From the NCBI GenBank assembly GCA_900107365.1, contig FNPS01000004.1, positions 124,001-188,000 on the forward strand: a DNA stretch of 64,000 nucleotides, given 5' to 3'. The notes beneath the pieces are model-generated. The model did no database searches. It was not told where the DNA came from and saw only the letters and a program-made list of their open reading frames with translations. Positions 7,858 to 27,083 of the stretch are shown one piece after another. The DNA is from Flavobacterium aquidurense. Lineage in GTDB: Bacteria > Bacteroidota > Bacteroidia > Flavobacteriales > Flavobacteriaceae. Both the position numbers and the translations under genes were made by a program. Positions within the stretch are counted from its first letter, which is position 1; the number at the start of each line of letters is the position of its first letter.

Positions 7858-8631
7858 TTAGTTTTCCTGTTTAAAGCAAAGTGGAATAATTTCTCCTTTT
7901 GCTAAACAATATTTCTCTACCAATTCTGGTGCAATTTTATTGGTGTAATCTTCTTCGATTACGATGAAACCGATACTTCTTAATTTGTCAAAATAATCAC
8001 GACCATAAATACGTACGTGATCGTATTGTCCAAATATTTTAGCACGTTCTTTTTGATCTGTAATCGTATCATCAGCAAAAGTAACTTCTCTCGATAAATC
8101 CTGTGGAATTTGCAAAACCGCCATTCCGCCTGGTTTTAAGACTCTGAATAATTCCTGCATTGCTTTTGTGTCATCCGGAATATGTTCTAAAACGTGATTA
8201 CATAAAATCACATCGTATTCGTTGTCTTTAAATGGTAAATTACAGATATCTGCTTTTACATCTGCCAAAGGCGAAAACAAATCGGTTGTGGTATAATCCA
8301 GATTTTTTTGCTTGCGGAATAATTTATAAAAAGCTTGTTCCGGTGCAAAATGAAGCACTTTTTTTGGCGCTGTAAAAAAATCAGTCTGATCGTTTAAATA
8401 CAACCAAAGTAAACGGTGTCTTTCTAACGAAAGTGTACTTGGAGAAAGCACATTATTACGTTGCTTTCCGTATCCGTAAGGTAAAAACGATCTGAAACTT
8501 TTCCCATCAATAGGATCAGTAAATTTATCTCCTTTTAAAGATAAAGCCAAAATTGGACGCGCCACATAACTCAAACGAATTAATAAGGGACGCGGTATTG
8601 TATTAAGTACTAGTTTGAATAGTTTTTTCAT
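7858..8631 (-). CDS. Class I SAM-dependent methyltransferase (type 11)
   Basis: A 257-residue protein with a Rossmann-type methyltransferase core. The SAM-binding loop, normally GxGxG, reads VLHFAPEQAFYK here, a variant FAPE motif. It is followed by the acidic DLFSPLADVKADIC strand, NEYDVILCNHVLEHIPDD and LFRVLKPGGMAVLQIP, which are standard motifs II to IV of Methyltransf_11. The N-terminus has a hydrophobic stretch (residues about 5-35) that might associate with membrane. Substrate unknown; cell-envelope glycan or lipid substrates are possible. Start is ATG, and no operon partner is obvious. Confidence 0.83.
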   Translation of the reverse strand: MKKLFKLVLNTIPRPLLIRLSYVARPILALSLKGDKFTDPIDGKSFRSFLPYGYGKQRNNVLSPSTLSLERHRLLWLYLNDQTDFFTAPKKVLHFAPEQAFYKLFRKQKNLDYTTTDLFSPLADVKADICNLPFKDNEYDVILCNHVLEHIPDDTKAMQELFRVLKPGGMAVLQIPQDLSREVTFADDTITDQKERAKIFGQYDHVRIYGRDYFDKLRSIGFIVIEEDYTNKIAPELVEKYCLAKGEIIPLCFKQEN

Positions 8632-8643
8632 TGGGGGTTATTT

Positions 8644-8681
8644 CGCAGAGTTACACAAAGGAGACACAGAGGCTCACAAAG
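8644..8681. repeat. Left copy of dispersed CAGAG...CACAAAG repeat
   Basis: This tract (CGCAGAGTTACACAAAGG onward) is matched in inverted orientation by 9105-9150. It contains the stop codon and last codons of the GxxExxY gene. The same wording (CAGAG, TCACAAAG) makes it one member of a family of intergenic repeats bracketing that gene. Confidence 0.65.
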
Positions 8682-9079
8682 TGTTTATAAATCTTTTTAT
8701 GTTGTTTTTTAAAATTTTTGAATCAAAATTAATAAGAAGGCCTAATGGATAATTGCCAAGTTTTAAATAGGTTAATATCTGAGCAAAATGTACATCCGTA
8801 AAAGCTTCGACAGTTTTCAATTCTATTACAATTGTATTCTCAATCAGCAAATCAATTCTATAACCATGATCAAGTCTTATGTCTTTGTAAACTATTTGGT
8901 AAAATTTTCTCTTTTTCAGCAATCAAACCAGAATTTACAATTTCATAATACAAACATTCCTGATAAGCTGACTCTAATAAACCTGGACCAAGCTGTTTAT
9001 GTACTTCAATAGCTAAACCTATAATTTTATATGTAATTGCATCTAATCTATTACGAGATTCATTGTTTTCCTCAAACAT
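8674..9079 (-). pseudogene. GxxExxY family protein, frameshifted
   Basis: Two overlapping reading frames together form one GxxExxY protein of about 134 residues. The N-terminal part (ATG at 9079) has AIEVHKQLGPGLLESAYQEC, carrying the name motif, and runs to AEKEKILP, then goes out of frame. The C-terminal part (frame used by 8674-8922) continues YKDIRLDHGYRIDLLIEN, VIELKTVEAF, QILTYLKLG and GLLINFDS. Removing one A from the run at 8895-8897 would join them as ILP-IVYKD. The conserved acidic/lysine residues suggest a PD-(D/E)XK-like nuclease fold; function is unknown. It could be an inactivated gene or a sequencing error. The 3' end lies inside a repeat. Confidence 0.85.
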
Positions 9080-9104
9080 TTTAAAAGGCTGGTAAATAAA
9101 AAAT

Positions 9105-9150
9105 TTTGTGAATCTTGGCGTATATCTTTGTGAATCTCTGTGGAATAACT
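9105..9150. repeat. Right copy of dispersed repeat, inverted
   Basis: Reads TTTTGTGAATCTTGGCG then CTTTGTGAATCTCTGTGG; its reverse complement aligns with 8644-8681 (CAGAG, CACAAAG blocks). It starts 25 bases upstream of the GxxExxY start codon and overlaps the map stop codon. Confidence 0.65.
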
Positions 9151-9967
9151 ATAAAATTAACGGCACTCTTCTGAATTCATCTTCTTCATTGCTTTCGATT
9201 CCTAATGCTTTGTAGATGTATTGAAAAGTTGATAATAATTCTGGTTTTCCATCAATTAATGCCACGTCGTGTTCGAAATGCGCACTTGGTTTTCCGTCCG
9301 CAGTTAAGATTGTCCAGCCATCTTTTAATTGTTTGATGTTTCTGGTTCCCATATTGATCATAGGCTCGATTGCAACCACCATTCCTTCAACAAAAAGTTT
9401 TCCACGACCACGTTTTCCGTAATTAGGCATTTCTGGTTCTTCGTGCATTTTTTGTCCTACACCATGACCTACCAATTCACGAACAACACCGTAACCGTGA
9501 GATTCCGTATATTTTTGAATCGCATTTCCAACATCTTCTACGCGATTTCCAGCTTTAAATTCCCTGATTCCAACATAAAGCGATTCTTTAGTAACCTGCA
9601 AAAGTTTTTTAACTTCCGGAGCAACTTCTCCAATCTCGAAACTATAAGCATGATCACCGTGATATCCATTTTTGAATGCACCACAATCTACTGAAATAAC
9701 GTCTCCGCTTTTCAAAGGAGTATTGTTTGGAATTCCATGTACCACCTGTGCATTCGGACTCATACAAAGAGAATTCGGGAAATCATACAATCCAAGAAAG
9801 CTTGGTACTGCACCATGATCGCGAATAAATTCCTCGGCTAATTTGTCAAGATATAATGTGGTAACTCCTTCTTTAATTTCAGAAGCAATCATTCCTAATG
9901 TTTTAGATACGATCAAAGCACTTTCGCGCATTAACTCAATCTCTTCTCTACTTTTTTGGATAATCAT
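9149..9967 (-). CDS. map: Type I methionine aminopeptidase
   Basis: Removes the initiator methionine from nascent cytoplasmic proteins. The chosen ATG at 9967 gives 272 residues starting MIIQKSREEIELM, the usual start of this family; the longer frame from 9991 adds eight residues that overlap the promoter. The pita-bread metal ligands are visible: D in ISVDCGAFKNGYHGDHAYSF (two Asp), H in GHGVGQKMHEEP, E in VAIEPMIN and E in AHFEHDVAL. Length and motifs fit a single-copy housekeeping enzyme. It has its own promoter, and its stop codon lies inside a dispersed repeat shared with the GxxExxY gene. Confidence 0.96.
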   Translation of the reverse strand: MIIQKSREEIELMRESALIVSKTLGMIASEIKEGVTTLYLDKLAEEFIRDHGAVPSFLGLYDFPNSLCMSPNAQVVHGIPNNTPLKSGDVISVDCGAFKNGYHGDHAYSFEIGEVAPEVKKLLQVTKESLYVGIREFKAGNRVEDVGNAIQKYTESHGYGVVRELVGHGVGQKMHEEPEMPNYGKRGRGKLFVEGMVVAIEPMINMGTRNIKQLKDGWTILTADGKPSAHFEHDVALIDGKPELLSTFQYIYKALGIESNEEDEFRRVPLIL

Positions 9968-9996: not shown

Positions 9997-10016
9997 CGAT
10001 ATTTATACAAATTTTT

Positions 10017-10140
10017 CGCCACGAATTTAACGAATTAGCATGAATTCAATTTTAATAAAAAAATTGAATTTTGAGAGTTCATTGTTTTTAAAGTTTTCGG
10101 AGGAAAAAATTAGTGAAAATTAGTAAAATTCGTGGCAAAC
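10017..10140. repeat. Imperfect inverted repeat, CCACGAATT family
   Basis: The left arm begins GCCACGAATTTAACGAATTA (from about 10019) and the right arm, ending in AAAATTCGTGGC near 10136, is its imperfect reverse complement. Between them sits a smaller palindrome (TTCAATTTT ... AAATTGAA). It fills the divergent gap between map and the DUF445 gene. Confidence 0.6.
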
Positions 10141-26231: not shown

Positions 26232-26302
26232 TAAGATTCTAAGGTTCTGAGTTTTCTGCTAGTATAATCTTAGTGGCTTAGCTGCTTAGTATCTCAGTAG
26301 CT
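26232..26302. repeat. CTTAG/CTAAG repeat at the 3' end of the PhyH gene
   Basis: CTAAGGTTCTGAG at 26239-26251 is matched, inverted, by CTCAGCACCTTAG at 27069-27081 (12 of 13). Further CTTAG words extend the tract into the last codons of the PhyH gene. Confidence 0.55.
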
Positions 26303-27009
26303 ATTTTCTCGCTCCATTCTAGTCCATCTGGAAGAATTTGGTTGCTAAATTCAATATGAATAACTCTTCTTCTTTCGTTATTTGTGGTTTTGTTTGAAGC
26401 ATGAAAAAGTAAAGGTTTCATAATCATAACTCCGCCTTTTTTAACTTCACAAATAGTTTCTTTTTCATTTTCAATTTCCAGGTTTTCAACTCTAAAAATT
26501 CCTTTTGAATGTGAATCGTTTATCACTTTTAAAGCGCCATTATCTTTGGTTGTGTTGTCAAGATGGATTCTGATAGTGAAATTATTTTCCAGAATTTCTT
26601 TTGGAGGCTGAACTGCAAATTGATTCTGTTTTATAGTCCAGTTTTCGAAATTTTGGATTTCAATTTTTTTATCAACAGAAATGGTTAAATCCTGATGATA
26701 AGCAACAAACCAATTTGATTTCTCCGGTTTATCAAAATAGATGGATTTTGTTATAAAGTAGCCTTCTCCAAAAGTATGGGCAATAATATCTTTTAAATTT
26801 TGATTGAAGATATAAGGCAAAGTTTCAGGGATTTCTTTATGAAATTGTCTGATGGCAAACAAATCCTGGGATTTTCTGAATGTCACATTTGTACTATCAT
26901 TTTCGGTCTGATTTTCAATTAACGAAATTAATTTTTCAATTTCATTTTCAGTATAAACAGTATTTATAATTGTAAACCCTTCAGAGTTTATTTCGTTTAA
27001 AGAATTCAT
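26278..27009 (-). CDS. Phytanoyl-CoA dioxygenase (PhyH) family protein
   Basis: A 243-residue non-heme iron, 2-oxoglutarate-dependent dioxygenase fold. The first iron ligands are in AYHQDLTISV (HxD), and the distal His is in MKPLLFHASNKT; an Arg for 2-oxoglutarate follows in NNERRRVIHIEFS. Substrate is unknown: this family acts on many small molecules and lipids. The gene stands alone between inverted copies of a CTTAG-type repeat, and its last codons fall inside the left copy. The start is the ATG at 27009. Confidence 0.83.
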   Translation of the reverse strand: MNSLNEINSEGFTIINTVYTENEIEKLISLIENQTENDSTNVTFRKSQDLFAIRQFHKEIPETLPYIFNQNLKDIIAHTFGEGYFITKSIYFDKPEKSNWFVAYHQDLTISVDKKIEIQNFENWTIKQNQFAVQPPKEILENNFTIRIHLDNTTKDNGALKVINDSHSKGIFRVENLEIENEKETICEVKKGGVMIMKPLLFHASNKTTNNERRRVIHIEFSNQILPDGLEWSEKIATEILSS

Positions 27010-27050
27010 TTTGAAAATAATTGTTATTTTAATTACAGATGTTTAAAATA

Positions 27051-27083
27051 AACTTAGAACCTTAGCGTCTCAGCACCTTAGAG
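27051..27083. repeat. CTTAG/CTAAG repeat upstream of the PhyH gene
   Basis: Reads CTTAGAACCTTAGCGTCTCAG and CACCTTAGAG, inverted relative to the copy at 26232-26302. It lies in the 84-base gap before the O-methyltransferase stop. Confidence 0.55.

Follow-up and report, generated by a model that had tools for sequence, protein, structure and literature searches.

A short gene of the GxxExxY family in Flavobacterium aquidurense lies between inverted copies of a dispersed repeat, with its stop codon inside one of them, which raises the question of whether gene and repeat form one element or are neighbours by chance. The locus was analysed within a 64,000-nucleotide stretch of contig FNPS01000004.1 (positions 124,001 to 188,000 of the forward strand), referred to here as the window; coordinates without a locus or contig name are window positions.

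Architecture of the window element

The whole element, arm, gene and arm, spans positions 8637..9149 on the minus strand (∼513 bp). It is flanked downstream by a minus-strand gene at 7858..8631, presumably SAM-methyltransferase-like, and upstream by a minus-strand gene at 9149..9967, presumably the methionine aminopeptidase-like map, both named by the look of their sequences. On the gene strand the first base of the element (9149) is the last base of the map stop codon. The left arm, downstream of the gene (8637..8681), contains four 7-bp units with a start-to-start spacing of 10-11-10: CGCAGAG (8644-8650), CACAAAG (8654-8660), CACAGAG (8665-8671) and CACAAAG (8675-8681). The right arm, upstream of the gene (9104..9149), also has four 7-bp units, which read on the minus strand, inward from 9149, as CACAGAG (9142-9136), CACAAAG (9132-9126), CGCCAAG (9120-9114) and CACAAAA (9110-9104), with a spacing of 10-12-10. 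The arms share an inverted match of 24 nt (8637-8660 with 9126-9149, 83% complementary) and a second of 17 nt (8665-8681 with 9126-9142, 88%). When up to two mismatches are allowed, the unit pair CTTTGTGNNNCTTTGTG occurs four times in the window versus 0.77 expected, and three of the four occurrences are within these arms.

The GxxExxY (PDDEXK_3) gene occupies 8674..9079 on the minus strand, and a frameshift near 8896 breaks it into two overlapping frames. The N-terminal frame (69 amino acids, 8870..9079, minus strand) covers TIGR04256 positions 2-48 and the C-terminal frame (82 amino acids, 8674..8922, minus strand) positions 43-116; both exceed the TIGR04256 and PF13366 cut-offs in a profile search. 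The TGA stop of the gene (8674-8676) shares bases with the innermost unit of the left arm, and 24 bases separate the start codon (9077-9079) from the right arm (9104). The original prediction, made from the DNA letters alone, had placed related inverted repeats around the gene, its stop inside the left repeat and its start close to the right one. This layout was confirmed, but the gene is not open: the prediction missed the frameshift, and the window copy of the element is a broken one. Near the 5′ end of map, at 10015..10139, lies an element that has no gene and belongs to another word class (GCCACGAATT, of the CACGAATT class), with 32-nt arms 61 nt apart.

Inverted arms at other GxxExxY loci

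The window copy has a strict arm score of 14. On contig C14, 307 other genes have a median of 10 and 16 of them score 14 or more, so that by itself the window copy is not extreme. Its arms are convincing because the layout recurs at the genome's other GxxExxY loci. The 5.44 Mb genome carries ten PF13366 genes (11 profile matches, two of them the halves of the window gene), and all nine other loci are flanked, with strict scores of at least 14 and a median of 24.5. When left flanks were compared with reverse-complemented right flanks over the ten loci, the two flanks of one locus scored 32.1 on average, compared with 17.1 when flanks were swapped between loci. Every locus has words of its own, such as CCGCAAGG (L001), CACGCAGATT (L002), CCATTAAG (L004), CCACAGATT (L006) and CCATATAAG (L008); under strict scoring, the best match at L008 and L009 differs from the outer arm pair.

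The comparison was extended to 119 loci (the best 80 of 565 named loci, 30 from a sample of the phylum and nine from the same genome), 117 of which had enough flanking sequence. Record titles among the best 80 named loci include Bacteroidota, Ignavibacteria, Acidobacteria, Planctomycetota and Treponema metagenome-assembled genomes. The median arm score of the 117 was 23 for own pairs, compared with 14 both for swapped pairs and for 198 other ORFs of the same loci, and scores of at least 26 were reached by 42 of 117 own pairs, 105 of 2,925 swapped pairs and seven of the 198 ORFs. Addition of searches with clades II and III and of five map-site loci gave 182 loci, 171 without duplicates and 169 with flanks. 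Strict scores of at least 14 were found at 128 of these 169 loci, which, being recruited by similarity to a query, do not sample the family at random. The corresponding counts were 10 of 242 for control ORFs and 80 of 1,500 for swapped pairs. By set, the loci at or above this score were 9/9 from the same genome, 5/5 from the map site, 58/78 named, 20/30 from the phylum sample, 15/20 from clade II and 21/27 from clade III. No clear inverted match was present at the remaining 41. These numbers support the cassette idea of the original prediction, in which a repeat family carries the gene.

Inverted repeats are common between genes, and the C14 genes that equal the window copy illustrate how ordinary terminator or attenuator hairpins could flank a short gene by chance. 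We consider this very improbable as an explanation of the GxxExxY arms, given their frequency at 128 of 169 loci compared with both control sets (10/242 and 16/307), their unit structure, and the fact that arms match their own partner and not the arms of other loci. The comparison of own with swapped flanks rules out simple terminators as the main cause.

Arm words differ between clades and follow the protein

Word labels could be given to 104 of the 128 armed loci (73 AG, 24 ATT and 7 CATAAG), leaving 24 without a label. AG-class words include CGCAAAG, CACAAAG, CACAGAG and CGCAGAG, ATT-class words CACGAATT, CGCAGATT, CACGGATT, CACAGATT and CACAAATT, and CATAAG-class words CATATAAG and CATTAAG. 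The first two units are 9 bp apart in 61 of the 125 AG-class arms with at least two units, 8 bp apart in 22 and 10 bp apart in 13; the commonest four-unit patterns in this class are 9-12-9, 9-12-10 and 9-11-9. Overall, the element measures ∼450-700 bp and consists of one small gene for a PD-(D/E)XK nuclease (Cas4-like fold) between terminal inverted arms, each arm repeating a 7-8 bp unit roughly two to four times in direct orientation, with a spacing of 9-12-9/10 in the four-unit arms of the commonest class.

Arm words thus differ between GxxExxY clades and only the architecture is common to them, so that the single repeat family assumed in the original prediction holds for the architecture but not for the words. 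On a FastTree phylogeny of the 104 proteins, which is weakly resolved and built on few columns, the word class, defined after inspection of the loci, changes seven times, compared with a mean of 28.5 after shuffling, and none of 200 shuffles was as low. Arm similarity also correlates with protein identity (Mantel r=0.35, with none of 500 permutations as high; r=0.29 for pairs below 60% identity). The correlation is absent for pairs below 45% identity (r=0.03, equalled or exceeded in 153 of 500 permutations), and the trend within the F. aquidurense genome is weak (eight loci, rho 0.32, p=0.10). The arm-word class follows the protein tree. The prediction had named unrelated repeats at other copies as an argument against a cassette; taken literally such repeats are half of what was found, and words that track the protein clade turn the observation into support.

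Gene-less copies accompany the gene across genomes

Among 198 genomes sampled from the phylum, an AG-class pattern, AACCRCARAGN{1,4}CRCARAG, was found in 57, and none contained the reversed pattern used as a control. A PF13366 match is present in 54 of these 57 genomes versus 101 of 198 overall (Fisher 9e-17), and shuffling of PF13366 labels inside families gave a mean of 46.1, with one of 5,000 shuffles as high as the 54 observed. The AG pattern is unaccompanied by a PF13366 match in three genomes, G095, G175 and G213. An ATT-class pattern, GCCACRRATTN{0,3}CACRRATT, occurs in 15 of the 198 genomes, with its control found once each in three. It is present in 7 of 14 genomes with a clade III gene (called at E≤1e-30) versus 8 of 184 others (p=8e-6; 15 of 5,000 shuffles inside families as high); in G106 there are seven ATT hits, although the clade III search at 1e-20 found nothing there. 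PF13366 genes are multi-copy, with up to 12 matches in one of the 198 genomes.

The genome of F. aquidurense contains 50 AG-pattern and 121 ATT-pattern hits for ten genes, and therefore most copies are gene-less. Contig C14 has 40 unit pairs compared with three on the reversed contig, and only five of the 40 start inside ORFs of at least 120 amino acids, even though such ORFs make up 87% of the contig. Gene-less copies built of the same units are thus dispersed between genes and scattered over the genome, as the dispersed repeat of the original prediction implied. Tandem gene-less elements, with several head-to-tail copies at one junction, were seen at L245, G208:C1:2706470-2707356 and G200:C30:42683-43360. 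The strongest inverted pair of contig C14 (91126-91860, L016; CAGTCGCAGTCGCAG words, score 63) encloses 548 bp in which the longest frame has 122 amino acids.

The same junctions in related species

Three gene junctions were compared between species, with one genome per species and states assigned by eye. The names hemA, hemC, hemW and cyclase used for two of them are our assignments, made from the look of the sequences. For the map-methyltransferase junction, 30 loci were drawn from 36 genomes with a match and seven were excluded as too distant or lacking map. The remaining 23 comprise eight with GxxExxY sequence, one with a gene-less repeat (L067), 13 that are element-free (2 to 51 bp) and one with another insert (L050). 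Four of the eight (L041, L043, L044 and L053) belong to another clade; the window type is intact at one locus (L054) and broken at three (L040, which is the window, L045 and L048). The protein at L041 is 38% identical to the window protein, while its map and methyltransferase neighbours are 95 and 97% identical to those of the window.

At the hemA-hemC junction, 30 loci from 61 genomes comprise four with a GxxExxY gene, nine with gene-less hairpins of the same word class, six partial, three with other word classes and eight without an element. L242 has a single hairpin in an 80-bp junction, and the gene-less copies at L243 and L245 are tandemly amplified. For the hemW-cyclase junction (30 loci from 56 genomes with a match, 61 searched), there are six with GxxExxY genes, 12 with AG-class gene-less copies, five with a gene-less CGCTGAT/CCGCGTT type, two with GIY-YIG genes, three with other inserts and two without. 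The three other inserts are at L281, L286 and L292; L281, the one checked, is an ordinary dehydrogenase gene. The two GIY-YIG genes (PF01541; L284:2311-2595 and L291:2311-2595) have TTCAGCATCT-type inverted ends.

The same junction can therefore be empty, hairpin-only or occupied in related species; elements are gained and lost there, are reduced to hairpins and take one another's place. Empty sites and single hairpins, proposed in the original prediction as something to look for, both exist at GxxExxY junctions of relatives. A search by eye for target-site duplications at the three junctions, where filled and empty versions are very divergent between species, gave nothing consistent, and no target motif emerged.

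Another enzyme might move the arms, with the nuclease gene a captured passenger or a marker of the target site. The large excess of gene-less copies over genes in the F. aquidurense genome would suit such an arrangement, as would the GIY-YIG genes and other repeat kinds at the same junctions. Arm words that track the nuclease phylogeny are not expected from it, and neither is the co-occurrence of gene and repeat across genomes, which persists inside families. We regard a passenger gene as unlikely, with a small but appreciable chance of being correct.

A predicted nuclease under purifying selection

The L001 protein is modelled with a PD-(D/E)XK fold (pLDDT 95.3, pTM 0.88). Foldseek returned no match for this model at E≤0.001 (best 0.01), whereas the best VIA-align match was 4ic1 (SSO0001), which we take to be a Cas4, with Z 9.9, rmsd 4.3 and 101 aligned residues; the other VIA-align matches are nucleases of the same superfamily (Z≤7.3). 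Ten residues are invariant in 76 sequences (G22, G24, E27, Y30, D67, E77, K79, Y95, N108 and F109) and include the active-site pattern E27, D67 and E77-x-K79. By modelled fold and residues alike, GxxExxY proteins belong to the PD-(D/E)XK superfamily and are predicted nucleases. Sequence searches of the PDB gave nothing relevant, and PHROGs no convincing phage family (best 4.4e-4). PF13366 and TIGR04256 are the only matches in the window element, known transposase and recombinase families being absent, and there is no room for a second gene of such a size. GxxExxY-like domains also occur within open frames of 883-896 amino acids (G201:C17, G092:C1, G064:C9 and G076:C22). The open-licence PMC papers found, a set that does not extend to subscription journals and preprints, mention GxxExxY in passing and describe no role; titles and the beginnings of abstracts there do not link the family to repeats, TIGR04256 is absent from the papers and PF13366 or PDDEXK_3 almost so.

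GxxExxY genes are under purifying selection, with a median dN/dS of 0.09 for 83 usable of 244 pairs (maximum 0.16, none at or above 1) and an open frame at 166 of 171 loci. A low dN/dS is equally expected of a gene that is useful to the host in defence, repair or regulation, with the repeats as operators for autoregulation and mobility secondary. Such a function would agree with the strength of the selection and with the weak PADLOC matches, the only ones obtained (Cas4, E 1.6e-4; RTasPDDEXK, a reverse-transcriptase-associated nuclease, E 4.3e-4). It is at odds with the patchy presence of the gene, with its replacement at L041 by an unrelated clade between near-identical neighbours, with the many gene-less copies and with the broken copies in the window and at L002, L045 and L048. 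We therefore judge a host-useful gene to be quite improbable as the main explanation.

Among 117 of the 128 armed loci with neighbours within 500 bp, orientations relative to the gene are (+,+) at 91, (−,+) at 12, (+,−) at 10 and (−,−) at four, where random insertion would give equal numbers of (+,+) and (−,−). Since all three genes usually point the same way, read-through transcription of the host operon probably provides expression of the nuclease gene. The same bias (91 versus 4) would be consistent with an element that acts at the RNA level like the intervening sequences of rRNA, its arm stem being cut from the operon transcript by RNase III or the nuclease so that the insertion is tolerated, and the two arms are indeed base-paired over their length in the fold predicted for the sense RNA. 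The 23S intervening sequences (PMC4990558) resemble GxxExxY elements in having a single ∼120-residue ORF within inverted ends and a patchy occurrence, and that of Coxiella, which has heptamer repeats at an arm beside its S23p ORF, is excised by RNase III. They differ in lying within 23S rRNA and encoding an S23p (four-helix-bundle) protein, whereas the GxxExxY elements seen are between protein genes and encode a nuclease; the window element, with its PF13366 gene between two protein genes, has neither the 23S location nor an S23p ORF. Differences between arms are wobble-compatible in 201 cases and not in 246, which departs from expectation in the direction opposite to RNA pairing (p=0.037), the window element folds no more stably than shuffled sequences (z −1.04, 12 of 100 as good), and a stem alone leaves the repeated units at fixed spacing unexplained. 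An RNA-level element is in our estimate unlikely. An Rfam scan of the ten GxxExxY loci gave no match.

Relation to known systems and sister elements

Insertion sequences have a gene between terminal inverted repeats; they also have empty sites and short derivatives, the MITEs, which keep the ends but not the gene. The GxxExxY element has inverted repeats around a single gene, gene-less derivatives and empty sites in common with them, and differs in that it is without a known transposase or recombinase gene and in that its arms vary by clade. Homing enzymes include proteins of both the PD-(D/E)XK and the GIY-YIG fold, and a free-standing homing endonuclease is likewise a small nuclease gene that acts as a mobile unit and is patchy at conserved sites. 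Unlike GxxExxY elements, homing genes are not known for inverted arms of repeated units or many dispersed gene-less copies. The REP/REPIN-RAYT systems and TIRtrons (PMC3733652; PMC3116915) have dispersed palindromic intergenic repeats, an enzyme gene flanked by its cognate repeat, gene-less copies and several repeat families per genome, each with its own enzyme. GxxExxY elements share these features and have neither the HUH transposase nor the GTAG-tagged unit: the RAYT enzyme is an HUH tyrosine transposase and theirs a PD-(D/E)XK nuclease, REPs are GTAG-tagged palindromes and their arms are arrays of 7-8 bp units at fixed spacing, and copy numbers differ. Our best reading of these comparisons is that GxxExxY elements would work like REPIN/RAYT or IS/MITE systems, with an unrelated enzyme and different ends, and belong to neither.

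All 11 four-helix-bundle (TIGR02436/S23p) genes of the F. aquidurense genome (L029-L039) also have strict arm scores of at least 14 (median 20.5), and their inverted matches are built of quasi-tandem short words of their own, which suggests that four-helix-bundle and GxxExxY elements form one larger class. At window positions 26234-27070 there is an inverted pair, AGATTCTAAGGTTCTGAGTTT and AAACTTAGAACCTTAGCGTCT, 795 nt apart, with words like the arms of four-helix locus L029. GIY-YIG genes were rejected as general partners of arms in this genome, where clear arms are present at one of five loci only (L304); that gene has a perfect 28-bp GTCATTGCGAGGAACGAAGCAACCACAC pair, and a similar gene-less repeat lies on contig C14 at 297690-297797.

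Taken together, these results suggest a very small kind of mobile element, undescribed so far, that leaves gene-less copies genome-wide. We think it probable, with considerable room for doubt, that this is a minimal element whose lone PD-(D/E)XK nuclease would recognize the units of its arms. The nuclease may bind its own units as a multimer and cut or nick at the arms, which could let the element spread or be replaced by transposition or by copying coupled to repair. Gene-less derivatives would then be mobilized in trans, in the way proposed for RAYTs and their REPINs.

More tentatively, and with somewhat less than even confidence, these elements could be a superfamily of minimal autonomous elements in Bacteroidota and beyond, each with a lone nuclease and a readable DNA code (CRCARAG, CRCNRATT and CATWWAAG for three clades). 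With four-helix (S23p) and GIY-YIG sisters it might account for a large share of intergenic hairpins, and the 23S intervening sequences would be a branch that landed in rRNA; if so, rRNA intervening sequences would be placed in a larger class. If GxxExxY proteins partner these repeats, a family found in 101 of the 198 sampled genomes of the phylum would have a job and a large class of dispersed intergenic hairpins an origin, and the clade-matched series of nucleases and units may allow a DNA recognition code to be derived.
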